Origin: Arthrobacter crystallopoietes BAB-32 | GTDB taxonomy: Bacteria; Actinomycetota; Actinomycetes; Actinomycetales; Micrococcaceae | Direction of reading: 5' to 3' | Length of the DNA stretch: 42,469 bases | NCBI RefSeq assembly: GCF_000328305.2 | Contig: NZ_ANPE02000074.1 | Coordinates: 1 to 42,469, forward strand | Shown: positions 8,013-30,724 of the stretch, in pieces | Numbering within the stretch: the stretch's first letter is position 1 | Layout of the letters: the number at the start of each line of letters is the position of its first letter | Notes under the pieces: model-generated | The model's input: only the letters and a program-made list of their open reading frames with translations | What the model was told of the DNA's origin: nothing | Database searches by the model: none | Translations under genes and position numbers: made by a program

Positions 8013-8036
8013 GCCGTGGTATCTCCGACCACGATA

Positions 8037-11228: not shown

Positions 11229-11235
11229 GCTAACC

Positions 11236-16000: not shown

Positions 16001-16059
16001 TACCCATTTGCGCCTTCCTACAATCGCTCCGCATGCGCGCGGTGAATTCAAAATCCAAT

Positions 16060-16077: not shown

Positions 16078-16554
16078 GGCTATCTGCCGACGATCACCCC
16101 CAACATCTAGTCATTCTAGAGCGTGCTTCCGACACTTTTGGCCCCGACCCATGTCCGGGGCCAGCCACGGAGGTTCGTAGGACTAAGTTGCATGGTCGGT
16201 CAACCTGCTTCCTGGCCCTTCCGTGAATGTCCGCCGACACACAGAGCCCGTGATCCGTTTCGGAACCGAATTCCGCGTCACTCAACATGCCACCGCGCTT
16301 ACCCGTTCGCCACCCTGGATGCTTACTGCGGCTGCTCCTTTAAATTGGCTTGTCCGGGCGAAGCTAGTCACCGCCAAGGAATGAATCAATAACTGCAGCT
16401 TCTACCCACTCGATCCATCATTGCGCTGAATTGGCACCACCGCTCGTTGCGAGTTCTTCATCGTCCATACTGTTGATGAGGTTGATGAGCTAGTCGCGAA
16501 GGGAAAACTCTAGCGGCGTCAGTGCCTGCTTGTACTCAGCGGCGAGGAAATAGG
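16078..16554. other. Gene-poor stretch between brxA and the IS256 remnant
   Basis: Short open frames exist on both strands (for example 16123-16392 plus and 16094-16288 minus), but none resembles a known family or has a persuasive start. On the minus strand a short segment reading YFLAAEYKQALTPLEFSLRD before a stop near 16494 could be the tail of a lost gene or IS debris. The BREX promoter probably lies at the brxA-proximal end. Confidence 0.5.
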
Positions 16555-16559
16555 AATGG

Positions 16560-16830
16560 CTGTCCGGAGATCTCGGTTCTTGATCTCCGTCAGCACCTCA
16601 AGCCAGAACTTCGCGCCCGCGGCGCCGTCACCGGCCCACAGCCCGAGGATGTCGCGTTCCCCCGCAGTGGTGGTGACCCGATCGCCACGTAGACCGGCCG
16701 GTTTGTGACCTGCCCGGCCCGGACCTTGACGTGGATCGCGTCGATAAACACCACCGGGTAAACGCGGTCAAGAGGCCGGTTCTGCCACTCTGTCATCTCG
16801 CCGATGACCTCCAACAGTCGGCTCATCGTG
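16560..16830 (-). mobile_element. IS256-family transposase remnant
   Basis: The minus strand encodes EVIGEMTEWQNRPLDRVYPV, then VVFIDAIHVKVRAGQV and RPVYVAIG, the strongly conserved centre of IS256/Mutator-family transposases around the second catalytic aspartate (VVFIDAI). One missing base near 16680, in a GGG run, shifts the frame. The repaired continuation reads TTTAGERDILGLWAG, then GAKFWLEVLTEIKNRDL, before the similarity stops. Only about 90 of roughly 400 residues remain, without either end of the element, and no terminal inverted repeats are seen. The fragment abuts the 3' end of the NrtR-like gene and separates BREX from the ADP-ribose cassette. Confidence 0.85.
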
Positions 16831-17503
16831 GCCGACGGAACAACCTCGAAGGGCGGCCGCGGGCCCCGTCCGTCATTTCGCCGGTCGGAACGAGTTGGGG
16901 TTCCATGAGTCGGCGGAACGTGTCGCGCTGTAGTTCTTCGCCCATGACGGCTTGGTGCACCATGCGCAGGTCGCGGAGGGTGAAGGCTCCTGTGAGCAGG
17001 CCACCGGGATCCGGCTCTGACCTATAGGCGGCGCGGGCGCGTTCCATGGCCTTGGCGATGATAGCGGGATGGTCGTAGGGCAGGTCGGGGACACGGGCGG
17101 CCACGGGCAGGAGTTTGACGCCGTCGGTGGCGAGGGCCTGCTCGAGTTCCTCAAGTGGCACGACATCCACGTGGGCGACGGACAGGACCCAGCCGCGGGG
17201 ATCGCGCCGGGGTTCATCAAAGACGTGCAGTTGCTTAGGCTGGCGCCCGGAGACGTGAGCTTTTTCGCGAAGCGAGCGGAGCACGGCGTCGGCCAGCCGC
17301 TCCCCCTCGTGCAGGAATGTCCCGGGGAGCGCCCAATCGTAGCCAGGCGCCTTGTAATGGGCGACGACCAAGATGCACAGCTCGTCTCCGGAAACTGTCA
17401 GTACCGCGGTGTCTACTGCTACCGAAGGGCGAGGGTAGTCGCTCAGGCGCTTGCCGGCGTCGTTAGTGATTGCCACAATTTCAATTAACTCATAGTTGCG
17501 CAA
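16823..17503 (-). CDS. NrtR-like Nudix/winged-helix transcriptional regulator
   Basis: 226 residues. The N-terminal ~140 residues form a Nudix fold (YPRPSVAVDTAVLTV, then WALPGTFLHEGERLADAVL). In the Nudix box, the position normally glycine is Thr, and two metal-binding glutamates appear as Ser and Lys (LRSLREKAHV), so hydrolysis is unlikely and ligand sensing more likely. The C-terminal ~60 residues (FTLRDLRMVHQAVMGE, then FRRLMEPQLVPTGE and GRPSRLFR) match the winged-helix of NrtR, the ADP-ribose-responsive repressor of NAD metabolism. It is divergent from the ARPP-1-like and ARG genes, which it probably controls. The start is a TTG at 17503, or GTG 17476. The last few residues run into the IS256 remnant, so the extreme C-terminus may not be original, although the family normally ends near this point. 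Confidence 0.85.
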   Translation of the reverse strand: MRNYELIEIVAITNDAGKRLSDYPRPSVAVDTAVLTVSGDELCILVVAHYKAPGYDWALPGTFLHEGERLADAVLRSLREKAHVSGRQPKQLHVFDEPRRDPRGWVLSVAHVDVVPLEELEQALATDGVKLLPVAARVPDLPYDHPAIIAKAMERARAAYRSEPDPGGLLTGAFTLRDLRMVHQAVMGEELQRDTFRRLMEPQLVPTGEMTDGARGRPSRLFRRPR

Positions 17504-17525
17504 AGCCGCAAACTGCCCTACTCTC

Positions 17526-17548
17526 TATTTTGAGCAAAGACGCTCTAA
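17526..17548. promoter_or_regulatory. Candidate operator between the NrtR-like gene and the ARPP-1-like gene
   Basis: The 108-base divergent spacer contains GAGC-N6-GCTC (arms at 17530-17533 and 17540-17543) flanked by T-rich and A-rich arms (TTTTGAGC and GCTCTAAA), an imperfect dyad of about 20 bases. NrtR proteins bind palindromes of about this size in such spacers. The assignment is by position and symmetry only. Confidence 0.35.
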
Positions 17549-17611
17549 AGATTCGCCGCAGGGAATGAACCTCGAAGCTGAGGTGCAAGCCGGCGGCAGA
17601 TTGGGGGAATC

Positions 17612-18499
17612 ATGAAGATCAGCACTCTGCACATCGGGGCCGGCACGCAGCTCGGCCCGCTCACGCTCTTCCCGCTCTGGACTGAGGGCCGTGGCGCTGT
17701 CGGCCTCACGACGGGAGCGGCCGCCAACCTCCAGGTGACGGAGCTGGCCTCCGGCCCGCAGGTTTCCAAGCTGACCGTCACGAACCGCGACACCAAGCCG
17801 GTGCTGCTGCTCGAGGGCGAGCTGCTGGAGGGCGGCCACCAGCACCGGGTCTGCGCACGGGACGCGATCCTGGCGCCAGGCGAAACCCGCGACATCGACA
17901 CGTACTGCGTGGAGCAGGGCCGCTGGGGCGGAGCCTCAGTCCACGGCCGGTCCGCCCGGCGGGCGCCGCTGAATGTCCGGGCGGAGCTGAACCGTGCCGC
18001 CCGCGGACAGCAAACGCAGGGCCGGGTCTGGCAGCGGGTGGCTCGCTACCAGGGCCTGCACACGATCTCCGGTTCCGGCTCGCTGGTTGAGCATCTGGAT
18101 GCCGGCACGCGCCACGCAGGTCTCGACCTGGCCAAGCTGCCGCGCCCGATCGAAGGCCAGCGCGGCGTCGTCGTTGGTTTTGGCGGCAAGGCCCTGATGC
18201 TGGAGCTCTTCGGCAGCCACAAGCTGTTTGTGCAGCACTACCGGTCGCTGGTGGAAGCGGCGTGGCTGGACATCCAGCTCTTCGCCGGCAATGTACCCAG
18301 CATCAAGACACCGGCACAGTCCGCCCGCGACCTCGCGGTCCGGCTGGCCGAGCTCGGCACCCGGCTGGACGGCACGGCCATCACCACAGGCGACGGCCGT
18401 GTGACCGCGAGCGGCATCGCCTGGGCGCCGCCGAAGCGGATGCCGGCGCTGGCGCACCTGAGCAGCTGGGACACGCACCATCCCATGATGGCGATCTGA
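17612..18499 (+). CDS. ARPP-1-like protein (ARG- and phosphatase-associated domain)
   Basis: 295 residues from ATG 17612 with GGGGGAA upstream. The sequence matches the ARPP-1 domain, named for its gene association with ADP-ribosylglycohydrolases and rhodanese-phosphatase-like proteins. Recognisable blocks are LTVTNRDTKPVLLLEGELLE, GGHQHRVCARDAILAPGE, and a C-terminal segment with VVGFGGKALMLELFGSHKLF. No signal peptide or membrane segment is seen, so it is probably cytoplasmic. The biochemical activity of the family is not established, as far as I know. The downstream neighbour is the ARG-phosphatase fusion, 62 bases away, and the divergent gene is NrtR-like, a combination predicted by comparative genomics to act in NAD/ADP-ribose metabolism. 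Confidence 0.8.
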   Translation: MKISTLHIGAGTQLGPLTLFPLWTEGRGAVGLTTGAAANLQVTELASGPQVSKLTVTNRDTKPVLLLEGELLEGGHQHRVCARDAILAPGETRDIDTYCVEQGRWGGASVHGRSARRAPLNVRAELNRAARGQQTQGRVWQRVARYQGLHTISGSGSLVEHLDAGTRHAGLDLAKLPRPIEGQRGVVVGFGGKALMLELFGSHKLFVQHYRSLVEAAWLDIQLFAGNVPSIKTPAQSARDLAVRLAELGTRLDGTAITTGDGRVTASGIAWAPPKRMPALAHLSSWDTHHPMMAI

Positions 18500-18561
18500 C
18501 CGCCGCCGCTCCACCTCATCCGCAATACTTCACTCATCACTTCGCGCCCCTTGGAGGCCTT

Positions 18562-20040
18562 ATGAACCTGAACTCTTTGCAGAATGACCGCGCCGCCGGC
18601 GTCCTCGTCACCCTTGCCGCCGGCGATGCCCTCGGTGCCGGCTACGAATTCGGCCCGGCCCTGCCGGACACCGCCGACGTCAGTATGAAGGGCGGCGGAC
18701 CGTTCGGCTTCGCCCCCGCCGAGTGGACGGACGATACGTCCATGGCGATCGTCATCGCCGAAGCCCTGCTCGAGGCCGCCGGCGAGGGCCGGAGCCTGGA
18801 TGAACGGACCAAGGGTGCGATGGCGCAGGCATGGTCCGACTGGGCACGCGGCGCGAAGGACGTTGGCGTGCAGACTCGTGCCGTGCTGGGGCGGGCCGGC
18901 GCCGCCGTTACCGCGGAGGGACGGAGTACGATCACGGCGGCGGATGCCTACGCCGCGTCCGAACAGGTGCACCGCTCCACCGGACGCTCCGGCGGCAACG
19001 GCTCGCTCATGCGCACCGCTCCCCTGGCGCTGGCCTACCTCGGCCGGCCCGAGCGGGATCTGTTCGACGCCGCCCTGGAGGTCAGCGCCCTGACCCACTT
19101 CGACCCCGAGGCCGGCGAGGCCTGCGCGCTCTGGTGCCTGGCCATCCGTCACGCCGTGCTTACCGGCGAACTCGATGTCCGTGCCGGGCTGCCGTTTCTG
19201 ACAAAGGAGCGGGCCGCAGTGTGGGCCGTGCGAATCGAGACAGCCGAGGCCAAGCTCCCGCGGGACTTTTCCCACAACGGCTGGGTGGTCGAGGCATTCC
19301 AAGCAGCGTGGTCGGCAATTACGACGACGGCGGGCGCGGCTTCCGGTCCGGCGCACCTGCGTGCCGCTTTGGAAGCGGCTGTCCGTGGCGGCAACGATAC
19401 CGATACCGTCGCCTCGATCGCCGGCGGGCTGCTCGGTGCTGCGTACGGCTTTACCGCTGTGCCGTTCGAATGGCGGCGGAAGCTGCACGGCTGGCCCGGG
19501 TACAAGGCGCGTGATCTGCAGCGGCTGGCCCTGCAGCTGGCCCGCGGCGAAGGGCGAACCGAAGGCCACTGGCCGGACCTGCCGGTCTTCGACAACTCCA
19601 CGTACATCAGCCCGACGCGGACCGACGTCGTCGAGCACCCGCTCGATTCCGACGTGCTCCTCGGCGGGGCCCCGGCCCTGTCCCGGAACGACTACGACGC
19701 CGTCGTATCCCTCTCCCGCGTCGGCACCGCCGAAACGCACGTCGACGCATCTGACCACGCTGCCTTCTGGCTGCTGGACGAAGCCGGCGCTGAATCCAAC
19801 GCGCATCTGGAATACGTGCTCCAGGAAGCCGCTGCCGCCGTCGCGCTCTTCCGCTCCGAAGGCAAGCGCGTGCTGCTGCACTGCGTCCGGATGGAAAGCC
19901 GCACCCCCACCGTCGCCGCCCTCTACGGCGCGCTCCTCACTGGCATGACTCCAGAGGAAGCCCTCGACAAGGTCCGCGAGGTCCTCCCGCACGCCAACCC
20001 GAACCCCGGCTTCCGCCAAGCGCTGCGCCGCCTCTCGTGA
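18562..20040 (+). CDS. ADP-ribosylglycohydrolase fused to a Cys-based phosphatase domain
   Basis: 492 residues from ATG 18562, with GGAGG five bases upstream; the frame is open further upstream but that part lies inside the ARPP-1-like gene. Residues 1-300 form an ADP-ribosylglycohydrolase (DraG/ARH family) with the metal ligands in place: GDALGAGYEF near 21, WTDDTS near 55-60 and GGNDTDTVASIAGG near 277-289. Residues ~345-492 form a dual-specificity/rhodanese-like phosphatase with the active-site loop HCVRMESRTPT (C441, R447; the Cx5R signature) and a potential general acid in the preceding loops. Both sites look competent. The fusion suggests a two-step removal or recycling of ADP-ribose or an ADP-ribose phosphate, under control of the NrtR-like gene. 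The true substrate is unknown. Confidence 0.9.
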   Translation: MNLNSLQNDRAAGVLVTLAAGDALGAGYEFGPALPDTADVSMKGGGPFGFAPAEWTDDTSMAIVIAEALLEAAGEGRSLDERTKGAMAQAWSDWARGAKDVGVQTRAVLGRAGAAVTAEGRSTITAADAYAASEQVHRSTGRSGGNGSLMRTAPLALAYLGRPERDLFDAALEVSALTHFDPEAGEACALWCLAIRHAVLTGELDVRAGLPFLTKERAAVWAVRIETAEAKLPRDFSHNGWVVEAFQAAWSAITTTAGAASGPAHLRAALEAAVRGGNDTDTVASIAGGLLGAAYGFTAVPFEWRRKLHGWPGYKARDLQRLALQLARGEGRTEGHWPDLPVFDNSTYISPTRTDVVEHPLDSDVLLGGAPALSRNDYDAVVSLSRVGTAETHVDASDHAAFWLLDEAGAESNAHLEYVLQEAAAAVALFRSEGKRVLLHCVRMESRTPTVAALYGALLTGMTPEEALDKVREVLPHANPNPGFRQALRRLS

Positions 20041-20169
20041 GTTGGGCAATGACTCGATCGACTTGCGGCGGGCGGTACGCGGCGCGGTGTTCAGCGTAAG
20101 AATTTATACCCCGCTAAAGTGCTCAAAGGGCTCTCGTTATCACAAATAGTGAAATCGGTCGCACTGTTC

Positions 20170-20198
20170 GGCGGCGCGCTTGCCGCCTTCCGTATACT
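20170..20198. promoter_or_regulatory. Inverted repeat next to a -10-like element upstream of ecsC-like gene
   Basis: GGCGGC (20170-20175) and GCCGCC (20182-20187) form a six-base-pair dyad immediately before TATACT (20193-20198), a good -10 match 25 bases upstream of the EcsC-family ATG. No -35 with normal spacing is evident; the dyad covers the expected position. It may be an operator or simple GC-rich chance. Confidence 0.3.
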
Positions 20199-20222
20199 CG
20201 CAAGATTTAGAGAGGGGTAGCT

Positions 20223-21017
20223 ATGGCTAACACGACCGATGAGACGACGCCTACCGCTGAGGAGACGCCGCCCGTCGAAGCAGAGGAGACGGCGAGCACT
20301 GTTGGGGATACGCGACACGCTGACGAGACACCCACCACTGCCACAGAGAAGGCGTCCGCACAGCTACTGAAGCTGGTTGACAACGTGATCGACAAGGGTG
20401 TTGGTCCATTGACGGGATCGATTGCATGGGCGGAGGATCGACTCTCCCGCATACAAGGGGACCGGTATGAACCCAGCGCCGACCCAACACGGAAAATCCG
20501 GCCGGACGAGCAAGAGGATATCGAAAAGGCCATCAAGAGGCTGATCGTCGAATCCGTTGAGGCTGCCGGTGTCAACGGCTTTGTGACCGGGCTCGGTGGG
20601 TTCATTGCAATGCCGGTGACAGTACCCGCTAATATGGCGGGCGCACTCGTGATCAATGCACGGCTCGCCGCCGCGATCGCCTACCTACGTGGATATGATC
20701 CCAAGGATCCGCACGTACGAACCGTGGCCACGCTCATCGCGGTGGGCTCGAACGCCCAGCAAATCGGGAAGGTAATCGGCATCAAGGTTGGCCAGAAGGT
20801 GGCCATGCAGGCAATCAAGAGGCTCCCGATCGTGGTGATTCGCGAGATCAATAAGAAGGCCGGTTTCATGCTCTTGGCCAAGTACGGCTCGAAGCGTGCG
20901 CTCGTTACCTTAGCGAAGGGCGTACCGCTGGTCGGAGGGGTGATCGGCGGTGCTGTGGACGCGACCATGACGAGCGTGATCGGCCGCACTGCGAGAGCGA
21001 TGTTCCCCGTCGACTGA
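20223..21017 (+). CDS. EcsC-family protein
   Basis: 264 residues from ATG 20223, preceded by GAGAGGGG. Residues 1-45 are acidic and Thr/Glu-rich, probably disordered. The rest matches the EcsC domain: VNGFVTGLGGFIAMPVTVPA near 118, AAAIAYLRGYDPKDPHVRTV near 147, then INKKAGFMLLAKYG and VPLVGGVIGGAVDATMTSVI at the end. Several hydrophobic, glycine-rich stretches suggest membrane association. EcsC-family proteins are widespread but their molecular role is unclear; the name comes from the Bacillus ecs operon. The gene has its own upstream -10-like element and is followed by hairpins, so it may be a single transcription unit. Confidence 0.85.
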   Translation: MANTTDETTPTAEETPPVEAEETASTVGDTRHADETPTTATEKASAQLLKLVDNVIDKGVGPLTGSIAWAEDRLSRIQGDRYEPSADPTRKIRPDEQEDIEKAIKRLIVESVEAAGVNGFVTGLGGFIAMPVTVPANMAGALVINARLAAAIAYLRGYDPKDPHVRTVATLIAVGSNAQQIGKVIGIKVGQKVAMQAIKRLPIVVIREINKKAGFMLLAKYGSKRALVTLAKGVPLVGGVIGGAVDATMTSVIGRTARAMFPVD

Positions 21018-21340
21018 CGGTTCGCTTTAGGGCAGCCACCATCGCCCATGCGCCACGCGTCCCGGCTACTCGGCAGTCTCAGGTAGCCGGGGCGAGGCCC
21101 CGCGCCCTCTAAAGATCGGGGTCTTCCGGCATAGACATGCTCGTACTTACCATCTGAAGACCCAGGCCTGACCGAGCGGCGTATCTCCGGAATCCGACCC
21201 AGGGCTGAAGTCGCACTACTCGAGCGAGTCTCCATTTACCGTGGCCAACTGCAAAAACTGTCAGAGGCAACCTCTACCGTAAAAAGTGGGGGCAGGCATC
21301 CGCTGCCACGACTGAATTGCGGACATTCTTGGGGGGAATT
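21018..21340. other. Intergenic region with several potential hairpins (terminator and leader)
   Basis: CCCGGCTAC (21061-21069) pairs with GTAGCCGGG (21083-21091) across 13 bases. GGGGC (21089-21093) pairs with GCCCC (21097-21101) across GAG, so the two hairpins are mutually exclusive at their junction. GGGTCTTC (21119-21126) can pair with GAAGACCC (21156-21163), ACTCG with CGAGT near 21220, and AGAGG with CCTCT near 21265. The first is probably an ecsC-like terminator without a U tract. The remainder could be a structured leader or small RNA for the downstream operon. No open frame of interest was seen. Confidence 0.45.
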
Positions 21341-21601
21341 ATGAGCGACGGTTACGCCATCTTCGATACGGGTAACGAGCAGCGGGACCCGGTCCGGCTC
21401 CGGCTAGGACACAGCAAGAAGATGGAAATCATCCGAGGCCTGCGCGCAGCTGGCCTGCGGTCCAAGGGAGCCGTGCTGGACTTCCTGATGAAGACCACCG
21501 GGCGGCCGATCGCAAACCTGACCGAGCTCTATGACATCGAGGCGGCCAAGATTCTGACTGAACTTCATCGGATCAGCCGCCGGACAACTTTGCATATCTA
21601 A
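21341..21601 (+). CDS. Uncharacterised 86-residue basic protein, first gene of the unknown operon
   Basis: I choose ATG 21341 (MSDGYAIFD) because GGGGGGAA lies four bases upstream; an in-frame ATG at 21317 lacks such a site. The protein is small and basic. RLRLGHSKKMEIIRGLRAAG is followed by SKGAVLDFLMKTTGRPIANL and a helical end, TELYDIEAAKILTELHRI. The pattern 'TGR..x..L...EA..IL..L' resembles a small helical DNA- or protein-binding module seen at the ends of some phage recombination proteins, but this is weak. It lies 48 bases before the RNase H-like gene on the same strand. Confidence 0.7.
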   Translation: MSDGYAIFDTGNEQRDPVRLRLGHSKKMEIIRGLRAAGLRSKGAVLDFLMKTTGRPIANLTELYDIEAAKILTELHRISRRTTLHI

Positions 21602-21649
21602 CAAGGGAGCACCACAACCAACACCAATTACCAGGCCGAGGAGGTCGTT

Positions 21650-22576
21650 ATGCAGTTTCCAGTTCCAGTTCCACCCGTCCGACGCTTCATCAGCGCTGCC
21701 GACGCACTCACCAGCCGTAGCGGAATCTCCGTCCACACGGAGTACCGCCGAGGCCACTTCCTCTGGGCAGCCGTCCGGACAGCGGGCGAACATGTCGCCG
21801 GAATCCGCTCCGGGTCGGTCATTACCGAGTCTGTCAACGGCAGCCAACATGCGCTGCTGAAGGCAATTTGCGACGCCGTTCGGCAGCTTCAGTGCGGCAC
21901 CTCCGCCGACGTTTTCTGCCTCAGTGAGGATCAGGCGGAATCACTGCGACTGCTCGGCATCGACGTTTCGGCTCTGTATCCTCCGGCGCCTGCTGTCTTG
22001 GCGTTGCAGGAGGCAATCAATGCGCGGGTCCAGGAGCTCTTCGCCAGGCTGGAGATCGCGACTGATGCCTCCCGCGGCCAGCGTTCCCGCTGGGTTGGGC
22101 ATGGCTGGGTCCTAGTGTTTCCGGATGGAATGAAGCCGTCCCTCGGACACAAGGCCATGGATGGTGGCAGTGTGTTGGAGGGCGAGCTCCGGGCTATCCG
22201 ACTGGCCCTGCTTGCGGCCCGAAATATTTACGTAGGCGCCTTGGACGGACGCAGCGCCGTCACCGTCAGCTCGGACAGCCAGCTTGCGCTGCGTATGATC
22301 AACCAGCCCGGCTTCGAGCCACCCTCCGCCAACGGGCGCTGCGCCAACGAAGTCCTGCGCATCCGAGGACTCGTCCGCTGCGCCAACGTGGATTTCAGAT
22401 GGGTCAAGGGCCACGCCGACAACATGCCCAACATCTACGCGGACCGCTTGGCTGTGCTCTCGAGGCGCTGCCAGGAAGCCGGCCTCTCCGACGAAGAGAC
22501 GTCACGGCTAGCGGCCGGAGTACGCGAAGAAGCCCGCAACCAGCTGCTCGGCTCAGCCCTGGCCTTGGCCGCCTAG
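21650..22576 (+). CDS. RNase HI-fold protein with a second, degenerate N-terminal copy
   Basis: 308 residues from ATG 21650, with GAGGAGG upstream. Residues ~133-275 carry a complete RNase HI-type active site: IATDAS (D139), LEGELRAIRLAL (E179), VSSDSQLAL (D209) and WVKGHADNM with IYADRLA (H255, D265). Such enzymes cut the RNA strand of RNA-DNA hybrids. Residues ~35-105 look like a worn second copy: FLWAAVRTAGEHVAG, then SQHALLKAICDAVRQL aligned with the E179 helix, and VFCLSEDQAESLRLLG aligned with the D209 strand-helix, with catalytic positions changed. I see no extra hybrid-binding domain or signal peptide. It is not housekeeping RNase HI by length or context. Its substrate in this operon is unknown. 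Confidence 0.8.
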   Translation: MQFPVPVPPVRRFISAADALTSRSGISVHTEYRRGHFLWAAVRTAGEHVAGIRSGSVITESVNGSQHALLKAICDAVRQLQCGTSADVFCLSEDQAESLRLLGIDVSALYPPAPAVLALQEAINARVQELFARLEIATDASRGQRSRWVGHGWVLVFPDGMKPSLGHKAMDGGSVLEGELRAIRLALLAARNIYVGALDGRSAVTVSSDSQLALRMINQPGFEPPSANGRCANEVLRIRGLVRCANVDFRWVKGHADNMPNIYADRLAVLSRRCQEAGLSDEETSRLAAGVREEARNQLLGSALALAA

Positions 22577-22693
22577 AAAGAACCACTGCTTGCAGGCCTC
22601 ACGAATCCTGTCGGAGCCGGCTGATAAATAGTCCTCATGGAACGGCCGGCAGCCGCTGCCCTTTCAACCTTATTCCCGACTTTAGGAGAATAG

Positions 22694-23779
22694 ATGACCC
22701 TAACCCTTCCGCCGGCATTGACCGGCGCAGCCGGCTCAAAGCCGGTTGCAGCTACAGTACCGCAGCAGCAGCTCACCCAGGACGAGCGCAACGCACTCTG
22801 GGTCGAGCGGTACATCGATGGCGAGACATTGGAAGCCATTGGCATTGATTACGGCGTTACCCGCGAACGCGTCCGGCAGGTAATCACGAAACTCGGCGGT
22901 AGCCTTGCACAGGAATCCCGGCAGAAACGGATCGAAGCACGGCAGGCACATGCACAGGCCCGTGCCGATGAGTTCATCGGACGATACGGCGACATTGCGC
23001 GGCAGATTGCAGCCCAAGGCTGCACACGTTCCCAGACCATCAACCGGCTGAAGTACGTCTTCCCAGAAATGGACGAGGATTTCGCTGAGACCGTGCTCCG
23101 CGAATCCGACATCGTGTTCGACCATGGCGCTCAAAACATCTTCTCGGATGCCATTATCAAGGCCGGTGTCTACTATCTCGTCGGTGCCGAACTCGGGCTG
23201 GCGCCGGAACCGGAATACACCGCGGTCCATCTGGACCTTGAGCTCATGGAGGAGCTCGCCGGGATCCTACAGGGCGGCACAGCCAGCGACGAGGACATAG
23301 CGACAATCCTCGGGGTCATTGGTGCCGCACATCGCCACGTCGCAGAGAATCCAACGACGACGATCACCGGCGCGCGCTATGAAGAGTTGCGCGACGAGCT
23401 GGTACCCGCGCTCGGCTGGGAGTCCCGCAAAGGCTCGACGCCTTGGCCTCCCACTCGCCAGACACTGATGGGCCGATACAAACTGTGGAACACAGCGCTC
23501 GAGTCCATGGGACTCGCAACCGCCGCGCTCGGCCGCGCACCCGGACTGGTCAAGTTCGACGAGGAGGATTACCAAGCGGCCATCGACTCGTTCGCGCAAG
23601 CCATGCACAACCAGGGTCTGCATCCGAGCATTGAGCGATACGAGAACTGGCTAGCCGCTACCAAATCCTCCGGAGTGGAGCGCCCTTCCGGTTCATCGGT
23701 CCGCAACTTCTTCGGCGGCTGGTCGGCGGCTGTTCGCGCTGCTGCGGTCGAGCTGTCTAAACATGGGAAGGAGAACTGA
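22694..23779 (+). CDS. Sigma-70 region 4-like HTH protein of unknown function
   Basis: 361 residues from ATG 22694, preceded by AGGAGA. Residues ~43-66 (GETLEAIGIDYGVTRERVRQ) are a very good match to sigma-70 region 4 HTH, the part that contacts -35 DNA, but no sigma region 2 is present, so it is not a complete sigma factor. A basic helical segment (QKRIEARQAHAQARADEFI) follows. The C-terminal ~60 residues contain a conserved-looking repeat, LHPSIERYENWL and SSVRNFFGGWSAAVRAAAVE, similar in pattern to small DNA-binding repeats associated with homing endonucleases (GSW..A...A). It is probably a multi-module DNA-binding protein. The stop and the next ATG overlap (TGATG). Confidence 0.75.
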   Translation: MTLTLPPALTGAAGSKPVAATVPQQQLTQDERNALWVERYIDGETLEAIGIDYGVTRERVRQVITKLGGSLAQESRQKRIEARQAHAQARADEFIGRYGDIARQIAAQGCTRSQTINRLKYVFPEMDEDFAETVLRESDIVFDHGAQNIFSDAIIKAGVYYLVGAELGLAPEPEYTAVHLDLELMEELAGILQGGTASDEDIATILGVIGAAHRHVAENPTTTITGARYEELRDELVPALGWESRKGSTPWPPTRQTLMGRYKLWNTALESMGLATAALGRAPGLVKFDEEDYQAAIDSFAQAMHNQGLHPSIERYENWLAATKSSGVERPSGSSVRNFFGGWSAAVRAAAVELSKHGKEN

Positions 23780-24285
23780 TGAACGGCGATTTGAGGAACA
23801 GTCCCATATGGCAGTGCGTCATCGAACTGCATCGTCAGGGCGTTTCCCTAGATCGAGTTTCAAAGGCGCTGCGCATTCCTGCGGAGGAAATTGCTCGAGC
23901 CATAGGCACGTGGACGGGAGTGGAGTGCAAACGTCCCAAGGTAGCGAAGGACGGCACAACGATCTGCCCCCGCTGCGCCAAAGAAGCCTGGCCGGTTCGC
24001 TTCGGCATGTGGATCCCAGAGCGGGACAAGCCGGCGCCGAAAGCCGTCATGGCAGGATGCGTCATCGGTCCTGACGCCCCCGAATGGGCCTGCCAAAACG
24101 ACGGCTGCGGCTACAACTGGCGCGTCGACACGCACAGCACGACGGGCATTCCTGATCGCCTCGCCCTAATGCAACTGCGCCATGAGGGCTTGTCGCTCGA
24201 GGACATCGCCGAACTATACGACGTCGAGCTGACGGCAGTGAATGCTGCTCTGCACGACTCACCGGGATTGGAACACGGCCAATAG
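23779..24285 (+). CDS. Zinc-ribbon protein flanked by two HTH-like segments
   Basis: 168 residues from ATG 23779, overlapping the previous stop by one base and preceded by GGAAGGAG. The centre has two Cys pairs, CPRC (C63, C66) and CQNDGC (C105, C110), a treble-clef or zinc-ribbon arrangement. HTH-like segments lie on both sides: HRQGVSLDRVSKALRIPAEE near 18-37 and RHEGLSLEDIAELYDVELTA near 132-155. No known family is recognised. A broken paralogue of the ribbon lies about 1.3 kb downstream, showing that this module was once duplicated here. Confidence 0.75.
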   Translation: MNGDLRNSPIWQCVIELHRQGVSLDRVSKALRIPAEEIARAIGTWTGVECKRPKVAKDGTTICPRCAKEAWPVRFGMWIPERDKPAPKAVMAGCVIGPDAPEWACQNDGCGYNWRVDTHSTTGIPDRLALMQLRHEGLSLEDIAELYDVELTAVNAALHDSPGLEHGQ

Positions 24286-24308
24286 AAATCTGCAGTTGGG
24301 GGAACTGA

Positions 24309-24830
24309 ATGGCAGGCCATCAACCGGACGTAAACAACTATGCGGAAACGCGGCAGCGGCTGGATTCCGCTTTAGAGTCCATCGAGCATTCAGCGGAAAG
24401 TCTCGGGCCAGCGCTGGACATCGCGCTGAAGGTCTCGCAGCACTATCGGGAGATTGTCGCCGGCTACCAGGACTGCCTTCACAAATTGCTCGCTGCCAAC
24501 ACTTCCGATCCGCGCGTCACCGGTCTCATCGAAACCGGTAAGGCGATGCTGGCTACAGCTGAGCGGAATCGGGACTACTGGAAGACGCAACTCCGCCGCG
24601 AACAGGGACGCCAGAACAAACTCAACGCCGTACGCAATGAGCTAGTCCAAGCCAGGAACCGTCTCGACGTAGCTCAGAAGCTCATGGAGGGACAAGCCCA
24701 TTTGGCTTCGCTCGCAGCACTCGGCGAACCGCTGCCCACCGCACAGGCGCGGGAGATGCCAGAGTTTCGCGAAGCCTTGCAGTTGGCCCGCGAGGCAGAG
24801 GCCCTAGCTGAGTTAAAGGAGTGGCGATGA
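24309..24830 (+). CDS. Uncharacterised helical, possibly coiled-coil protein
   Basis: 173 residues from ATG 24309, with GGGGGAA seven bases upstream. The composition is strongly helical throughout, rich in Ala, Leu, Glu, Gln and Arg, with likely coiled-coil between about 95 and 140 (REQGRQNKLNAVRNELVQAR) and a charged C-terminus. No enzymatic motif, signal peptide or membrane segment is visible. It could be a structural partner of the following membrane protein, with which it overlaps by four bases (ATGA). Confidence 0.7.
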   Translation: MAGHQPDVNNYAETRQRLDSALESIEHSAESLGPALDIALKVSQHYREIVAGYQDCLHKLLAANTSDPRVTGLIETGKAMLATAERNRDYWKTQLRREQGRQNKLNAVRNELVQARNRLDVAQKLMEGQAHLASLAALGEPLPTAQAREMPEFREALQLAREAEALAELKEWR

Positions 24831-25342
24831 CGAAGAGCGCCGGCAGTAGCGGTGAGCGGTCCTGCGACTCTTCCATTAATGTCGAAGTGACGAAACGGAC
24901 CACGGGCGGCTGCCTATTGGGGTTCGCCGTGCTGACTTCCCTGTTATGGCTGATCATCGCCTCCGTGAGCGGCGGCAACTCCGGCGCAGCCCTTGCCGTA
25001 TTCCTGCTCGTGCTGCTGTCCTCGGTTCCAATCCGCCTCGCGCTACGCCGGAAATCCATTGACCGAATCCAAGCGGCCGTCAACGATGCCCTGGCCCGGG
25101 AATTGCACACCCACGTGCGAGTCAGCCGAAAGCAGGCGGACAGGCTACACGACTGCCTGGTCACGAAGATCGAAGACGGCAACCAGAGCTACAAGTTCGT
25201 AGCGAAGGATCCACAGCCTGGAACCGCGGACAGTAACGCCATCAGCACAGACTTCGTCGTGACCATCACCGCGAAACACGGCGATCTCGGCCTGGCTGCC
25301 TATCAGGACATGGCCCGAGCCGTGCTGGAATCCCTCAGATAG
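24827..25342 (+). CDS. Uncharacterised small membrane protein with two TM segments
   Basis: 171 residues. I choose ATG 24827, which overlaps the upstream stop (ATGA) and has AAAGGAG upstream; GTG 24821 is also in frame. Two adjacent hydrophobic segments, GCLLGFAVLTSLLWLIIASV (about 29-48) and ALAVFLLVLLSSVPIRLAL (about 55-75), form a hairpin in the membrane. The C-terminal ~95 residues are soluble, with mixed helix and strand (VRVSRKQADRLHDCLVTKI, then TDFVVTITAKHGDLGLAAYQ), and by the positive-inside rule (RRK after TM2) probably cytoplasmic. No family is recognised. Confidence 0.7.
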   Translation: MTKSAGSSGERSCDSSINVEVTKRTTGGCLLGFAVLTSLLWLIIASVSGGNSGAALAVFLLVLLSSVPIRLALRRKSIDRIQAAVNDALARELHTHVRVSRKQADRLHDCLVTKIEDGNQSYKFVAKDPQPGTADSNAISTDFVVTITAKHGDLGLAAYQDMARAVLESLR

Positions 25343-25368
25343 ACCAGACCCTTGGCCCGAGGTTGTGA

Positions 25369-25530
25369 TGGAACGGGTGCGCCCTGCCGAGGTCATGGAC
25401 GGGATCGTCTCCTTCCCGCGGTGTGGTCAGGAGGCATGGCCGGATGCGTCGTCGGAGGCGACGACCCGGAGTAGATCTGCATGAATGAGGACTGTGGCTA
25501 CGAATGGCGAGTGCAGACAGCCGATGACTA
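25369..25530 (+). pseudogene. Decayed paralogue of the zinc-ribbon gene
   Basis: Two short segments in different frames match the zinc-ribbon protein encoded at 23779-24285. The first, DGIVSFPRCGQEAWP, corresponds to DGTTICPRCAKEAWP, with the first Cys changed to Phe. The second, CMNEDCGYEWRV, corresponds to CQNDGCGYNWRV, with both Cys kept. About 70 bases of the linker are changed or lost, and the frame is broken between them. The sequence ends at a TAG near 25528. It fills most of the 233-base gap between the two-TM gene and the 89-residue gene. Confidence 0.75.
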
Positions 25531-25575
25531 GGGTCGGGACGCGAGCGTACTCCTGTACCTTGCGAAAGGAATCAA

Positions 25576-25845
25576 GTGACCGACAATCTAAATCATCCGG
25601 GCGATGCATTCATGTCCCGGGAGGAAGAGACCGAAATCGAGACTCTCGCCGTCCTAGGGCATGCGGAGACGACGACAGACCAGCTGCTCGAAAAGTACGG
25701 GCTCCTGCTGGAGCTCCAGAAAACCCGCCCTCAGGACGTTCCTCCTGGCGCGCACAACGCGCTCAATGAGAAGCTCCAAGAGCACGTCGAATGGATGAAG
25801 CCATACAGGCTGGTCCCCGACGAGGACGCTCCCCGCCCGAGCTGA
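25576..25845 (+). CDS. Uncharacterised 89-residue acidic protein
   Basis: Starts at GTG 25576 with AAAGGA seven bases upstream. The protein is acidic and helical (REEETEIETLAVLGHAETTT, then QLLEKYGLLLELQKTRPQDV), with a proline-rich, charged tail. No motif or family is recognised. It is the last gene of the unfamiliar run and lies 113 bases before the NERD helicase gene on the same strand. Confidence 0.65.
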   Translation: MTDNLNHPGDAFMSREEETEIETLAVLGHAETTTDQLLEKYGLLLELQKTRPQDVPPGAHNALNEKLQEHVEWMKPYRLVPDEDAPRPS

Positions 25846-25958
25846 TGCGCCACCGCCTCCGGACTGCGTGGCCTGCCTGGAGCAAGGAGCGGGCCACGGT
25901 ACGGTGGAAGCACATGAGCCGGGCTGGACTTCCGGCCGTCAGGAGCGGGGGGTCGAAA

Positions 25959-27662
25959 ATGCGGTGCATTCCGGAGGAGCCGGAGTTCAGCGAGGGGCAG
26001 ACGGCGGAGAAGGCCGTCTGGGAGAAGCTGCGCCGTTGTCTGCCTGACGGCGTCATCCTGGCCCACTCGGTGCAGGTCCGGCACGGACGGGCCGAGCACG
26101 AGATCGACCTGCTTGTGCTGTGGCCCGGAGTCGGGCTGGCCGCGGTCGAAGTCAAAGGCGGGCTCGTCAGCATCGAAAACGGGCAGTGGTACCAGTCCGG
26201 TGGCAAGGAAGGCAGGCGCCGGATCCAGAGTCCGGTCGCCCAGTCGCAGAGTTCGGCCCACGCCTTCAAGGCGTGGATTGGCGACCAACTCGGCACTCCC
26301 CTGACCAGCCGCTTCGCCTACATGGTGTGCCTGCCCTACACGCACGTGCCCGCAGACTGGACCATGGCCGGGTGCCCGCGCTCCCTAATTCTGGACGAAA
26401 GAGATCTGACTGACCCTGCCGAACAAATCCGGCGCGCCATCGAGCAGGAAGGCAGCGGCGCCAGCCAGCTGACGCCGTCGTACGCCAACCGCGTGGCCGC
26501 CAAGCTCTCCGGCACGCTGCAGCCCGACGACGGACCGCGCCTGAGCAGCCAGGAGCAGGAAGACGATCAGGAGCGCCTGACTGCACAGCAGGCAGTTCTG
26601 CTATCGGCTACGAGGGACATTCCGCGCATCCGGTTCTCCGGCGGGGCAGGCAGTGGCAAAACCTGGTTGGCGGTGGAGAAGGCCCGGCGGTTGTGCCGCC
26701 AGGGCAAGCGCGTAGGCCTCTTTTGCTACAACAAGGGCCTCGGCCAGTACCTCCAGCACCAGGTGTCCGGTTGGCGGCATGCCAAGCCGGTGTTCACCGG
26801 CGAGTTCCACGAATATGTCCGCTCTCTTGGAGTTCCGGACGGCCAGGGCCAAGCCTACTTCGACGAGGAGATGCCGCGCCTGCTCAGGGAAGCCGCCGCC
26901 CTGCTGCCGGAACGGGACAAGCTCGACGCCGTCGTCGTCGATGAAGCCCAGGATTTCGCACCGCTGTGGTGGGAGGCGTTGCTGGCCTGCCTGAATGATC
27001 CTGCGTCCGGCGAGGTCTACGCCTTCATGGACGACCAGCAGGATGTCTACCGGCGCTGGGACGAGGCCGCCGTCGGCGCCGCCTTGGGCGCGGTGGATCT
27101 GGTGCCGATCCGGATCGACGACAATCTGCGCAACACCCGGCGCATCGCGGAAACCTTCGGCGTGTTCGTCGGCGAGTCCTTCAAGCCAAAGGGAAGCACC
27201 GGACTACCAGTGCGGTTCGTCAGCTGCGCTACCGAGGACGCGCTGGATGTGGCCGGGGACTGCGTGGACGCGCTCATCGGCGAGGGCTGGGCCAACAACC
27301 AGATCGCCCTGCTGACCACCCGGAGCCGGCATCCCGAGCACCAACGGCATTTCGACGATGGGACCGTCCCCGAGTACTGGAGGGAATTCCATGCCAACGA
27401 GGCCGAGTTCTACGGGCACGTGCTGGGGTTCAAGGGTTTGGAACGCTCGGTGGTTGTCCTATGCGTCAACGGGTTCAAGGAAGCCGCCCGCGCGCCGGAG
27501 CAGCTGTATGTCGGGCTCTCCCGGGCGCGCAGCCTGCTGGTCGTCGTCGGCGACCCGGCCCTGCTCGAGAAGGCAGGTGGAGCGCGGCTCGCCGCCGAAC
27601 TGAAGCGCGCCGAGGACTGGGACCCACATATGGAACCCGCTGCCGACATGGCGGCCGGGTAG
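25959..27662 (+). CDS. NERD-domain superfamily 1 (UvrD-like) helicase
   Basis: 567 residues from ATG 25959 (MRCIPEEPEFSEGQTAEKAV), where family members normally begin; a G-rich Shine-Dalgarno precedes it. Upstream in-frame starts at 25791 and 25914 would add residues that do not look like the family. Residues ~10-130 form a NERD nuclease-related domain with PD-(D/E)XK-type residues (HEIDLLVL, AVEVKGG). The helicase motifs are intact: Walker A FSGGAGSGKTWLAV near 223, Walker B AVVVDEAQDF near 325, YAFMDDQQDVYRR (motif III), DDNLRNTRRIA (motif IV), GFKGLERSVVVLCV (motif V) and YVGLSRARSLLVVV (motif VI). It probably unwinds and possibly cuts DNA. Genes of this type are frequent in defence islands, but a specific target is not known. 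Confidence 0.88.
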   Translation: MRCIPEEPEFSEGQTAEKAVWEKLRRCLPDGVILAHSVQVRHGRAEHEIDLLVLWPGVGLAAVEVKGGLVSIENGQWYQSGGKEGRRRIQSPVAQSQSSAHAFKAWIGDQLGTPLTSRFAYMVCLPYTHVPADWTMAGCPRSLILDERDLTDPAEQIRRAIEQEGSGASQLTPSYANRVAAKLSGTLQPDDGPRLSSQEQEDDQERLTAQQAVLLSATRDIPRIRFSGGAGSGKTWLAVEKARRLCRQGKRVGLFCYNKGLGQYLQHQVSGWRHAKPVFTGEFHEYVRSLGVPDGQGQAYFDEEMPRLLREAAALLPERDKLDAVVVDEAQDFAPLWWEALLACLNDPASGEVYAFMDDQQDVYRRWDEAAVGAALGAVDLVPIRIDDNLRNTRRIAETFGVFVGESFKPKGSTGLPVRFVSCATEDALDVAGDCVDALIGEGWANNQIALLTTRSRHPEHQRHFDDGTVPEYWREFHANEAEFYGHVLGFKGLERSVVVLCVNGFKEAARAPEQLYVGLSRARSLLVVVGDPALLEKAGGARLAAELKRAEDWDPHMEPAADMAAG

Positions 27663-27869
27663 GAGCAGGCGGCCCTCAGCGGTTATCCGGTGGCTGAGCT
27701 GCCGGTTGAGGTGAAGCAGGAATTTCGTCCGGGCCGAGGTGCGCACCACGGCGCGAACGTTTTCCGAGATTTCGCGATCACTGACCGTCGTGTCGCAGGC
27801 CGTCAAAGACCATGGCGGCTGCCGCAAGCGCATAGAGTTAGTGATCTGGCCGATTTTTTTGGGGGGAAG

Positions 27870-30724
27870 TTGGGGAACCGCACGCTGCTGTCCGTGCCCG
27901 AGGCGCTAGCCGAGCTCACTGAGATGGTGGGAACAGCCCAGGCAGAGAATCCGTTCGCACCTGTCACCGTCGTCGTCCCGTCCCATGCCTCCGGCCTGGA
28001 CGTGGAACACTACTTGGGCCGCACGCTCAACGACGGTCGCGGCAGCGTGTCGGTCCGCACGTTCACCCTCCGGGACCTTGCCCTAGAGCTGATCGCCTTG
28101 GGCAACTTGGCCGATGGCCGCATTCCGCTGCCGCCGATGCTGCGTGAAGGAGCCATCAGCTCCGTCCTGGCCGTCGACCCGGGACTCTTCGCCGACGTCG
28201 CGGACCAGCCCGCCACTGCACGTGCTATTGCGCGCACCGCCATGGTCCTCGACGCCGTCGATGAGCCGGGTGACATCAAACTTCCCGCTCTTGTCAATGA
28301 AGTGCTGCGGGTGCACGGAAAGGCCGCGGCCGCCTTGACCACCGGCTGGCTGACCGGCAACGAGCTCTTCGCCCTGGCGCAGAAGGCCCTGCTGGACCCG
28401 GCAGTCATCCGCCGGTTCGGCGTCGTCGTCGGGTTCATGCTGCCGCCGGAAGATGATCCGGCCGGCGGGCAGTTTGGGGCCATGTTGGAGGAACGAACCG
28501 GGATGGCGGTCCTGCGGGCTGCTGGTGCACTGACTCCGGATACCACCGTCTATACGACCTCTGATGCCGATGACGAGGCACGGGCCGTAGTGCGGCTGGT
28601 CGCCGAACGGATTAACTCCGAAACGCCGGGGCACCGCATCGGCATCTTCTACTCCGCGGCCGACCCCTACCGCGGGTTGCTCGCCCAGCGTCTGACCGAG
28701 GCCGGAATTACCTACGTTGGCGCCGACGCTCACCAGCTGAGCGATACACCCATGGCCCGCGGTCTGCTGCGGTTGCTGAGACTCGATCCGCTCGATCCGG
28801 ACCTGCGGCTGATCCTCAACGTTCTCGCCGAAGGAACGCTGGTGTGGAAGGACAGGACGCTTCCAAGCAGCGCCACGTGCGAAAGGCTGTACACCGCTCC
28901 ACCGGATGAGGATGGGGATCCCGACGCTGAGCCGCCAAGCCACCTCCTTCGGCAACGCGAGAACCTGCTACTTTTCCGCGAGTTCGTGTCGGAGCTATCC
29001 GATCAGGTGGACCGGATCTTCCTGGCCGAATCATGGACAGAGGCTGCGGCAAAGCTGGAAGAGCTGATCGACGGATTCATGGGGCCGCGCTCTGAGCAAG
29101 AACGCCCGGAACTCAGCGCCGCCCGCGGGCAGGTCTCCGATATCGTCGGGGAACTGAAACTCCTGCAGGGCATTGCGCCCGCACCTTCTGCCGCGTCGCT
29201 CCGAAGCGTCCTGGAGGGAGCCATCGCCGCCAAGGGCGGTTGGAAGGGTAGGAGCGGCACCGGCGTTGTGCTGGGCGCGTACGCGGACGGCATCGGCCGG
29301 GACCTGGACGCGGTCTATATCGTCGGCGCTGCCGAAGGATTGGCTCCGGCGCGGATCAAGGAGGATCCGCTGCTCCCAGACTCGGTCCGGCGGCAACTCG
29401 GTCCGGGCCTGCCCACCGTCGAAGACCGGGCGGTCACGAAAAAGGAACAGTTCTTCGCTCTTCTGGCCACCGGCGCGGAACAGGTCATCACCAGTCCCCG
29501 CGGAAACCTGCGCGGCGGAGGAGCCTACCAGCTCTCCCGCTGGATCACCACCGATGTGCCGGAAGGCTGGCGACCGACGGCGCTACCTTCGTACGCCCAT
29601 GGCGTCGCCACCGGTGCGCCGACTGTGGGCGGCCTGGTGCCGACTGCGCAGGAATGGCGGCTCCGCCGCTGCCTGGAGTCCAACGCCGGACCTGGCATGC
29701 TCGCCGACGATGCGGTGCTGCTCGGCTCACTTGAGGTCCGCCGGCACCGCCGCGACGGGGTGTTCTCCCGGTTCAATGGCAATCTGTCCGGCCGCACAGG
29801 CCTCGTGGATCCGGACAAGGCCATGTCCCCCACGCGGCTGGAGGACTGGGTGGACAGCCCGCTGGCCTATTTCCTGCGCCGCATCCTCAAGGTTGAGCTC
29901 TTCGAGGATGTGGCCCTTGAGGTCCAGATCGGCAGGTTGCAGAGGGGAACACTGCTGCACGCCGTGCTCGAGGACTTCGTGGGCGAGGCTACGAGCGGCG
30001 GCTTGGTGCCGTCGTCAGCCCGGCTTATGGAACTGGCGCAGGCCGCGTTCGAACGGGAGGCCAATCCGGCGTGGCTGGGCTATCTCTGGGAGCGGGACAT
30101 GGCCGCCATGCGGCAGAACCTGCTCGCCGTCTTCACCGCCGATCAGGATCGGCAGTCCGCAGGCTGGAAATATTTAGCCGCGGAGGCGAGCTTCGGCCCG
30201 CAGGAACACGGGCACGCCTATCCCCCAGCGGAGCTTGAGTTGGCGGATGGCTCGACCGTGCGGTTCCTCGGCAAGGTGGACCGCATTGACCGCGACGCCA
30301 ACGGCCGGATCAAGGTCATTGACTACAAGTCCGGCAGCGATAAGAAGTACGGAGACCTGAGCCCGACCAACCCGACTGCCGGGGAACCCGCTTCCAGCTT
30401 CCCGTGTACGGTCTCTTTGCCCGACGGCTGAGCGAAATCCCAGCCGTCGAGGTTGAAGCCGAATATTGGTTCATCTCCCTGCCCTTCGGAGAAACCAGGA
30501 GAGGCTATGCCGTTACTAACGAGGTCATTGAGACCCTCCGCGCGGACGCTACGCGTGTCATCACCGCGATGCGCCGAGGATACTTCCCGCCCAAGCCGGA
30601 ATCGGGCCAGTTCGCCAGCTTCTCGACGATGATGGGCCGGGACGGGATGCAGCAGGCCTGGCACGGTGTGTCTGGCGCGGAGGAACTGCGGGACATCGCC
30701 GCACTGCTTGGGGGAGAGAAATGA
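27870..30724 (+). pseudogene. AddB-like PD-(D/E)XK nuclease, split by a one-base frameshift
   Basis: The most likely start is TTG 27870, just after GGGGGGAAG, although the spacing is tight; the frame is open back to 27690. The first frame runs about 850 residues to a stop at 30431. Adding one G to the GGGG run at 30381-30384 joins it to the second frame (TRFQLPVYGLFARRL), which ends at 30724, giving about 951 residues. The N-terminal portion resembles inactive-helicase AddB (APVTVVVPSHASGLDVEHYL) with no Walker A. The nuclease motifs are intact: GTLLHAVLEDF, FLGKVDRID and VIDYKSG. I do not see the four Cys of a Fe-S cluster. It probably pairs with the downstream AddA/RecB-like protein. The break removes about 100 C-terminal residues after the catalytic motif, unless it is a sequencing error. 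Confidence 0.82.

Follow-up and report, generated by a model that had tools for sequence, protein, structure and literature searches.

Gene content of the locus

The 42,469-nucleotide (nt) contig NZ_ANPE02000074.1 of Arthrobacter crystallopoietes BAB-32 (assembly GCF_000328305.2; the whole stretch is called the window here, and its genome G000) carries, between an ADP-ribose cassette and a NERD nuclease-helicase gene, seven same-strand genes that we nicknamed A86, RNH, SIG4, ZNR, HEL, TM and S89. A first-pass annotation, made from the letters alone, had taken these genes for one unfamiliar operon. Our analysis argues for a mosaic, in which the RNase HI-domain gene RNH and SIG4, whose product bears the helix-turn-helix (HTH) of sigma factor region 4, show a conserved linkage to the ADP-ribosylglycohydrolase (ARG) gene of the neighboring cassette.

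Read from the sequence, the seven open reading frames, all on the plus strand, are confirmed, together with every gap and overlap listed by that annotation. A86 (21341-21601), a small protein with no known domain and no family match at E<=1, is followed after 48 nt by RNH (21650-22576), in which a 130-amino-acid (aa) N-terminal domain precedes the RNase HI domain (residues ~135-270). SIG4 (22694-23779) starts 117 nt later and consists of the RpoD-like region-4 HTH (residues 25-65), a helical middle and one or more C-terminal homing-endonuclease-associated repeats; through a 1-nt TGATG overlap it runs into ZNR (23779-24285), a zinc ribbon flanked by two HTH-like segments. After 23 nt comes HEL (24309-24830), a helical protein and the first gene of a separable pair, which shares a 4-nt ATGA overlap with the second, TM (24827-25342). 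In TM the two hydrophobic segments noted at first pass can be read directly and are followed by a C-terminal domain. S89 (25576-25845), a small protein gene found with NERD and ZNR genes, lies 233 nt further on. The pseudogene assigned to this last gap is indeed there: a search (tblastn) with the ZNR protein of the congeneric genome G004 recovered the remnant of a second ZNR gene with stops (25362-25513, plus strand) in two pieces, 25362-25442 and 25436-25513, the second 85% identical to that protein over 26 aa. An Rfam search of window positions 16000 to 27700 gave no match, and promoter and terminator scans gave counts not above those of shuffled sequences.

RNH is a ribonuclease HI by its domain

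RNH matches PF00075 above the cut-off (E=4.5e-7) and phrog_531 (E=1.4e-15), and all 20 aligned relatives keep residues D139, E179, D209, H255 and D265, which bears out the full RNase HI active site seen at first pass. The match and the DEDD active site together place RNH among the ribonucleases HI and predict RNase H activity; under the NCBIfam ribonuclease HI equivalog model it scores 21 of 160 bits, far under the cut-off. The AlphaFold2 (AF2) model is poor (pLDDT 53.8, from an alignment of four sequences), and its best Foldseek matches are still RNases H. The N-terminal domain is conserved in the family and has no recognized match. A degenerate RNase H fold, at which low-confidence secondary structure hinted, was rejected for this domain, as hhalign of the N-terminal against the C-terminal half gave 0.2% probability.

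The catalytic half of RNH is 35 to 36% identical to Arthrobacter phage RNases, and RNH is 32 to 33% identical to plasmid RNase H proteins; RNH may therefore be phage or plasmid derived. A search of viral sequences with RNH returned two weak matches, which were not used. We also considered a prophage, plasmid or integrative and conjugative element module and rejected it, since the genes identified beside RNH here include none from phages or plasmids.

SIG4 carries a primary-sigma-type recognition helix

The sigma region 4-like HTH without region 2 described at first pass holds across the family: PF04545 is matched in 18/18 SIG4 proteins (window protein, E=2e-6, above the cut-off), and no Sigma70_r2 match is listed for any of them at E<=0.01, which argues that SIG4 is not a sigma factor. 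At the same threshold, 16 of the 18 also match PF18780 (HNH_repeat); in the window protein this match falls 2 bits below the cut-off. Within the recognition helix, T56, R57, E58 and R61 are invariant and R59, V60 and Q62 nearly so among the 18 proteins, at positions that we take to correspond to those with which sigma70 reads the -35 element. The solved structures that match this HTH are primary sigma region 4 (e.g., 7kuf, 4g6d, 6ono), with one designed repeat protein as the top entry. The AF2 model of SIG4 (pLDDT 81, pTM 0.46) is near-wholly helical and gave no Foldseek match at E<=0.001.

SIG4 does not belong to the MzaA family, whose model matches only the HTH stretch, with 20.9 of 800 bits. 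No match to SIG4 was found in phage or plasmid collections, nor to ZNR and TM in plasmids, A86, HEL and S89 being outside these searches. A viral search with SIG4 returned at least 71 loci, mostly short HTH matches, and L118 and L120 match its C-terminal part.

The zinc ribbon recognized between HTH-like segments in ZNR stands, its cysteine pattern being read directly; the flanking HTH matches are weak, the best (HTH_23, E=2.2e-5) lying 0.1 bit below the cut-off. SIG4 and ZNR form a single open frame in genomes G271 and G264; the same arrangement is broken in G182, and a divergent SIG4-like protein of G240 bears a zinc ribbon.

Two further kinds of protein were seen in passing. Some SIG4-like helical proteins lack the sigma-4 head and are encoded by genes that stand alone (L042-L049, L052; genera g3, g6 and g12); among the three that were scanned, those of L042 and L046 bear TY-Chap3 and that of L048 a weak HNH repeat. 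An SF2 helicase is fused to sigma-70 regions 1.2, 2, 3 and 4 at L040 (15806-18211), is also matched in L073, L080, L082, L083 and L088, and has a similar counterpart in L060. This unusual fusion, with a helicase half like PbeA and a sigma half like MzaA, lies near a NERD gene in L040, L080, L082, L083 and L088.

The seven genes form a mosaic

In the 10 genomes of the genus, the distribution differs gene by gene. Full-length ARG and RNH occur in the same four (G000, G002, G004 and G009), SIG4 in two (G000, G002), A86 in three (G000, G002, G009), ZNR in the four with RNH and as broken pieces in G006, S89 in three (G000, G004, G009), and HEL adjoining TM in four (G000, G009, G001, G003). G001 and G003 carry HEL-TM without full-length ARG, RNH, SIG4 or ZNR. 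In G004 the order is ARG-RNH-ZNR-S89-NERD fragment, and the window, where the ZNR remnant stands directly ahead of S89, repeats this gene order. G009 is divided over two sites: the first reads ARG-(TY-Chap3 fragment)-S89-NERD, and the second, ~12 kb on, holds a duplicated ARG tail followed by A86-RNH-ZNR-HEL-TM, without SIG4. This distribution resolves the set into three blocks: A86-RNH-SIG4-ZNR, HEL-TM, and ZNR remnant-S89-NERD.

The first-pass annotation had offered a single seven-gene, nucleic-acid-sensing nuclease with a membrane partner. The tight spacing and the HEL/TM overlap speak for that idea, which we now regard as very improbable: tblastn finds HEL and TM only in the window and G009 among the SIG4/RNH loci examined, HEL-TM is separable from RNH as G001 and G003 show, and neither G009 nor G004, where S89 stands ahead of NERD and between ZNR and the NERD fragment, respectively, has a SIG4 match. 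The suggested check for co-occurrence did reveal a conserved neighborhood for RNH and SIG4, near ARG.

The small genes follow their own paths. A86 is found in 6/295 Micrococcaceae genomes at E<=1e-3 and lies upstream of RNH in G000, G002 and G009, the G009 copy having a stop inside the matched stretch. A86-like small genes are also seen between SIG4 paralogues and NERD in L077, L082, L083, L088 and G226 (L040); their presence away from or without RNH indicates that A86 is not tied to RNH. TM occurs in 5/295 genomes at the same threshold, one match being weak.

RNH and SIG4 are linked to the ARG gene

The cassette that the first-pass annotation had set as the left boundary of the system turned out to be what RNH and SIG4 are linked to. 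It consists of an NrtR-type regulator (16823-17503, minus strand; NUDIX, PF00293 E=1.1e-7, and NrtR_WHD, PF21906 E=2.9e-12), ARPP-1 (17612-18499, plus strand; PF20208 E=2e-58) and ARG-RPase (18559-20040, plus strand), an ADP-ribosylglycohydrolase (PF03747 E=3.6e-49) fused to a dual-specificity phosphatase (PF00782, DSPc, E=4.8e-8, 0.2 bits below the gathering cut-off). By its domains, this set corresponds to the core found in ARG-centric conflict systems, which are predicted to be anti-phage. The ARG domain has no ADP-ribosyltransferase (ART) or sirtuin match among the scanned neighbors (for the BREX genes the scan was with PADLOC alone, and small open reading frames were outside it), the phosphatase is fused to it, a NUDIX-type candidate repressor lies beside a conserved repeat, and ARPP-1 is present. 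TY-Chap3 was not found in the window; it occurs in G002, between ARG and A86, and in SIG4 paralogues elsewhere.

Linkage was first measured in a family sample of 295 Micrococcaceae genomes, with cut-offs of E<1e-50 for RNH and E<1e-90 for SIG4 that exclude the weaker matches of 35/48 and 62/72 genomes, respectively. Most of the weaker SIG4 rows are either relatives that lack the sigma-4 head and match from residue ~85 onward or matches to the HTH alone. In G017, G259 and G240, the ARG locus holds SIG4-like pieces that are divergent or broken. RNH is present in 13/295 genomes and in 12 of these has ARG 117 bp to ~12.4 kb away, within 1.7 kb in seven; the exception, G254, has no ARG match at the 1e-60 threshold. 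SIG4 is present in 10/295, eight with ARG 79 bp to ~11.3 kb away and two (G101, G238) with no ARG match. Seven of the 295 have both RNH and SIG4, 61 to 133 bp apart in six of them, from three genera, and 5.7 kb apart in G216. These proximity counts are raw, without a matched random-gene baseline. Hypergeometric probabilities, uncorrected for kinship, are 5e-9 for RNH with SIG4, 2e-11 for RNH with two-domain ARG (11/13) and 5e-8 for SIG4 with ARG (8/10). The two-domain set, judged from the query span, comprises 26 of the 43 genomes above the 1e-60 cut and leaves out G038, whose ARG match is shorter and has one stop.

A wider search with a SIG4 profile, on one genome each for 84,980 species, used two peptide patterns, so that relatives lacking both are missed. 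It gave 17 loci in Arthrobacter, Paenarthrobacter, Pseudarthrobacter, Sinomonas, Cryobacterium and Microbacterium, six of them shared with the family sample. In nine of the 17, SIG4 and ARG share a strand and SIG4 starts ~100 bp after ARG, an arrangement that makes co-transcription plausible. Eight of these nine have one or two SIG4-like paralogues next (pieces in L079; none in L081), and both paralogues scanned against Pfam, from L039 (the L077 locus) and L051, bear TY-Chap3, that of L039 also an HNH repeat. With the window, G002, G264 and G226 added, there are 21 distinct full-length SIG4 loci; in 16 of them ARG is no more than 12.4 kb away, L087 (41 to 43% identity to ARG, 5.6 kb) being the weakest case.

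Alternatively, the locus could be an insertion hotspot where decaying mobile cargo has collected as a mosaic, the genes sharing no function. The second ZNR pseudogene fits such decay, as do the in-frame stops in the ZNR and A86 genes of G009, the duplicated ARG tail beside the module of that genome and the RNH gene of G216, which is split between frames. We consider this distinctly unlikely, as all seven genes of the window have pairwise dN/dS ratios (nonsynonymous to synonymous rates) of 0.09 to 0.34 against same-genus copies, and the RNH-SIG4 spacing of 61 to 133 bp is kept in six genomes of three genera. By the Nei-Gojobori method, with some pairs close to synonymous saturation, the ratios are 0.09 to 0.13 for A86 (first 80 codons), 0.16 to 0.27 for RNH, 0.09 for SIG4, 0.11 to 0.18 for ZNR (first 113 to 120 codons), 0.12 for HEL, 0.21 for TM and 0.22 to 0.34 for S89.

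A conserved bipartite repeat adjoins NrtR

Alignment of the intergenic regions between NrtR and ARPP-1 revealed an inverted repeat, TTGCGCTAA-N-TTAGCGCAA, with a spacer of 24 to 28 bp. The window copy, TTGCGCAAA-N24-TTTGAGCAA (17496-17537), lies 5' of ARPP-1 and is degenerate, with three mismatches. We scanned loci L031-L089 and L163-L178 and the window, allowing <=3 mismatches, and found the repeat in 30/36 NrtR rows, or in 27/32 distinct loci with an NrtR gene once rows from the same genomes were merged (L035/L074, L039/L077, L041/L081, L073/L175), at one site per locus. The site is beside NrtR in 26 loci and 5' of ARG in L173. Loci L059, L087, L165, L167 and L178 have an NrtR gene and no copy at this limit, L165 having one with a 38-bp spacer; allowing <=3 mismatches also gives no copy in G009, the genome closest to the window by its ARG. 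The repeat is absent from all five loci with an ARG or ARPP-1 match and no NrtR match, and present in 1/35 loci with neither NrtR nor ARG/ARPP-1 (L036, 5.8 kb from RNH) and in 3/135 Markov-shuffled loci. The left half-site may overlap a -35 element in L078, where it reads TTGCGC and CATACT stands 17 bp further on. This bipartite palindrome is probably the NrtR operator.

Flanking defense genes

That the genes sit in a defense island is borne out on the left side. PADLOC finds BrxA, BrxB, BrxC, PglX, PglZ and BrxL on the minus strand at 3644-16051, presumably a Type I BREX set from its gene order; PglZ is divided over two overlapping frames (5686-7407 and 7296-8012) and is thus frameshifted or mis-sequenced. 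Between ARG-RPase and A86 lies an EcsC-family gene (20223-21017, plus strand; PF12787 E=6.4e-12), the PADLOC candidate PDC-S29 (PDLC04988 E=1.2e-68), the place of which is taken in G002 by the TY-Chap3 gene. To the right of S89 is the NERD nuclease-helicase gene (25959-27662, plus strand; PF08378 E=2.1e-13, and RTasNERD-Hel in PADLOC, E=6e-27), followed by genes whose products we labeled AddB and AddA by appearance; in PADLOC the AddA-like protein matches UvrD-type helicases, and the AddB-like protein has no match. The AddB-like gene shifts frame near its C terminus (30365-30431), and four relatives align over both frames; this change is either a sequencing error of the draft genome or a real lesion. 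ARG itself aligns as two pieces in L078, L080 and L082, which suggests a frameshift or deletion in several relatives.

Because AddB/AddA-like and NERD genes recur in the neighborhood, we also weighed a DNA-repair or R-loop cluster, in which RNH would clear R-loops and work together with the NERD helicase and AddAB-like proteins, and the ADP-ribose genes would be there by chance. This is improbable: NERD resembles defense helicases, the site, whose gene content varies from one congener to another, also has BREX, EcsC/PDC-S29 and PLD-helicase genes, and in the window AddB shifts frame.

An accessory arm or a general regulator

Our preferred explanation, held tentatively, is that A86-RNH-SIG4-ZNR could form an accessory nucleic-acid-processing arm of the NrtR/ARPP-1/ARG-RPase predicted anti-phage locus, with HEL-TM and S89 as separate cargo. 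We propose a model in which NrtR would hold the cassette off via the bipartite operator ahead of ARPP-1, until ADP-ribose freed during infection lifts this repression, as we infer from a published model (PMC9503650). ARG-RPase would then strip the ADP-ribose put by a phage enzyme on host proteins, e.g., RNA polymerase. SIG4 may bind DNA by means of its C-terminal repeats and its RpoD-like helix, which is of the -35-reading type; alternatively, SIG4 and ZNR may bind RNA polymerase. Given the SIG4-ZNR fusions, ZNR would be the partner of SIG4, and SIG4 could place RNH to cut RNA in the RNA:DNA hybrids of phage transcription or replication.

A more far-reaching, though unlikely, extension would make SIG4-RNH(-ZNR) a promoter-directed RNase H. 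The sigma-4 head would find -35-type promoters, the hybrids formed there would be destroyed, and the whole would be switched on by the ADP-ribose signal that reveals a phage-modified RNA polymerase, as a bacterial design counterpart of the TATA-binding protein (TBP)/RNase H combination in TOTE systems.

Several observations weigh against the accessory-arm explanation. RNH accompanies SIG4 in only 7/21 SIG4 loci and stands without a full-length SIG4 match in G004, G009, G038, G126, G240 and G254. The distances can be long, with RNH-SIG4 10 to 12 kb from ARG in G264, G271 and G182, and RNH 12 kb from ARG in G009, where ZNR has stops within the matched stretch and A86 has a stop. In the window itself, ARG and A86 are not adjacent, as the EcsC gene and a 323-bp gap lie between them. 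RNH relatives occur elsewhere, both in genus g22, where the two loci read are chromosomal, and on large plasmids of the Arthrobacter group, beside VWA-like and MoxR/ATP-binding genes (two regions read). No repeat was found near the start of RNH in seven loci at <=4 mismatches, nor elsewhere in the window, which leaves shared NrtR control of the module unsupported. The linkage may also reflect a shared insertion site in the defense island.

The remaining point of this kind, the five of 21 loci where SIG4 lacks ARG, leads to the strongest rival. In L084 (Cryobacterium) SIG4 is convergent with BrxHII-BrxD-PglZ at 77 bp; in L085 (Microbacterium mitrae) it is flanked by PDC-S37, a VWA gene and an XRE-like gene (assigned by eye), with PglW on the other side; in L086 it adjoins PDC-S37; in L076 it lies between relatives of PLD-helicase and NERD; and in L089 a 2159-aa protein is near. 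SIG4 beside BREX and PDC-S37 is thus not tied to ARG or RNH, and it could be a general transcription regulator of defense islands that reads -35 elements and silences or activates neighboring defense operons like WYL regulators, RNH being independent cargo. The primary-sigma type of its recognition helix fits such a role, and WYL regulators of BREX and diverse defense systems have been described (PMC9122589, PMC9122601, in the parts consulted). On the other side, the ARG operon is followed by SIG4 in nine loci, and the zinc-ribbon fusion and the TY-Chap3 paralogues suggest more than a simple repressor. We hold this regulator rather unlikely, and sequence alone does not separate it from the accessory arm.

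The giant proteins (~2200 aa) near SIG4 in L085 (1273-7905) and L086 (2983-9609) match PDC-S37, with DUF4011, an AAA helicase and the MTES_1575 restriction endonuclease (REase); that of L086 additionally has HEPN_Swt1.

Comparison with known systems

The first-pass annotation had recognized no described system of this composition. In the literature searched (subscription papers, figures and supplements not covered), we found no description of ARG or BREX loci with an accessory that pairs RNase H with sigma-4, and to that extent its statement holds, although what it described is not one system. RNH-SIG4 is apparently an accessory module, so far undescribed, that belongs to a predicted system already known. 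Our study thereby adds two accessory families to ARG-centric loci, one of them bearing the promoter-reading helix of the main sigma factor, and offers the conserved repeat as a candidate operator for these loci. Since SIG4 is also found beside BREX and PDC-S37, its role in actinobacterial defense islands may be a more general one, as a regulator or a targeting factor.

The closest known relatives are the ARG-centric loci themselves, which, in the parts of Iyer et al. (2022, PMC9503650) consulted, are predicted to undo phage-imposed ADP-ribosylation, are proposed as the first host systems countering such modification of host molecules, and gain or lose variable modules around a core. TY-Chap3 was described from them in the same paper. 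The ARG-phosphatase fusion, ARPP-1, the NUDIX-HTH repressor, TY-Chap3 in relatives and the variable nuclease and helicase genes around a conserved core are shared, whereas the accessories listed in section 3.8 of that paper are REase-fold and helicase proteins; 'RNase H', 'sigma' and 'zinc ribbon' are absent from its main text (figures and supplement outside the search).

The resemblances of the two proteins are equally partial. In sigma factors, the region 4.2 helix reads the -35 element. SIG4 shares this helix (TRERVRQ) with RpoD/SigA, but the rest of the protein is a helical domain with homing-endonuclease repeats and no region 2 match. RNH has the catalytic domain and DEDD residues of RNase HI and of actinophage RNase H (phrog_531), but adds the conserved, unrecognized 130-aa N-terminal domain. 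Like the WYL regulators BrxR and CapW, as described in the parts consulted, SIG4 is a putative DNA-binding protein beside several unrelated defense systems; unlike them, it combines sigma-4 with homing-endonuclease repeats, and no WYL domain was found in it. A SIGMA-HTH-like domain has been reported in BrxL, a protein distinct from SIG4 (PMC12839542, seen in part). Finally, TOTE conflict systems have a TBP component and often include RNase H domains (PMC12458937, seen in part). Compared by description only, they resemble the present module in joining a DNA-binding protein of basal-transcription type (TBP there, sigma-4 here) to RNase H domains, and differ from it in their TPR, OB and TBP components, none of which was recognized here.

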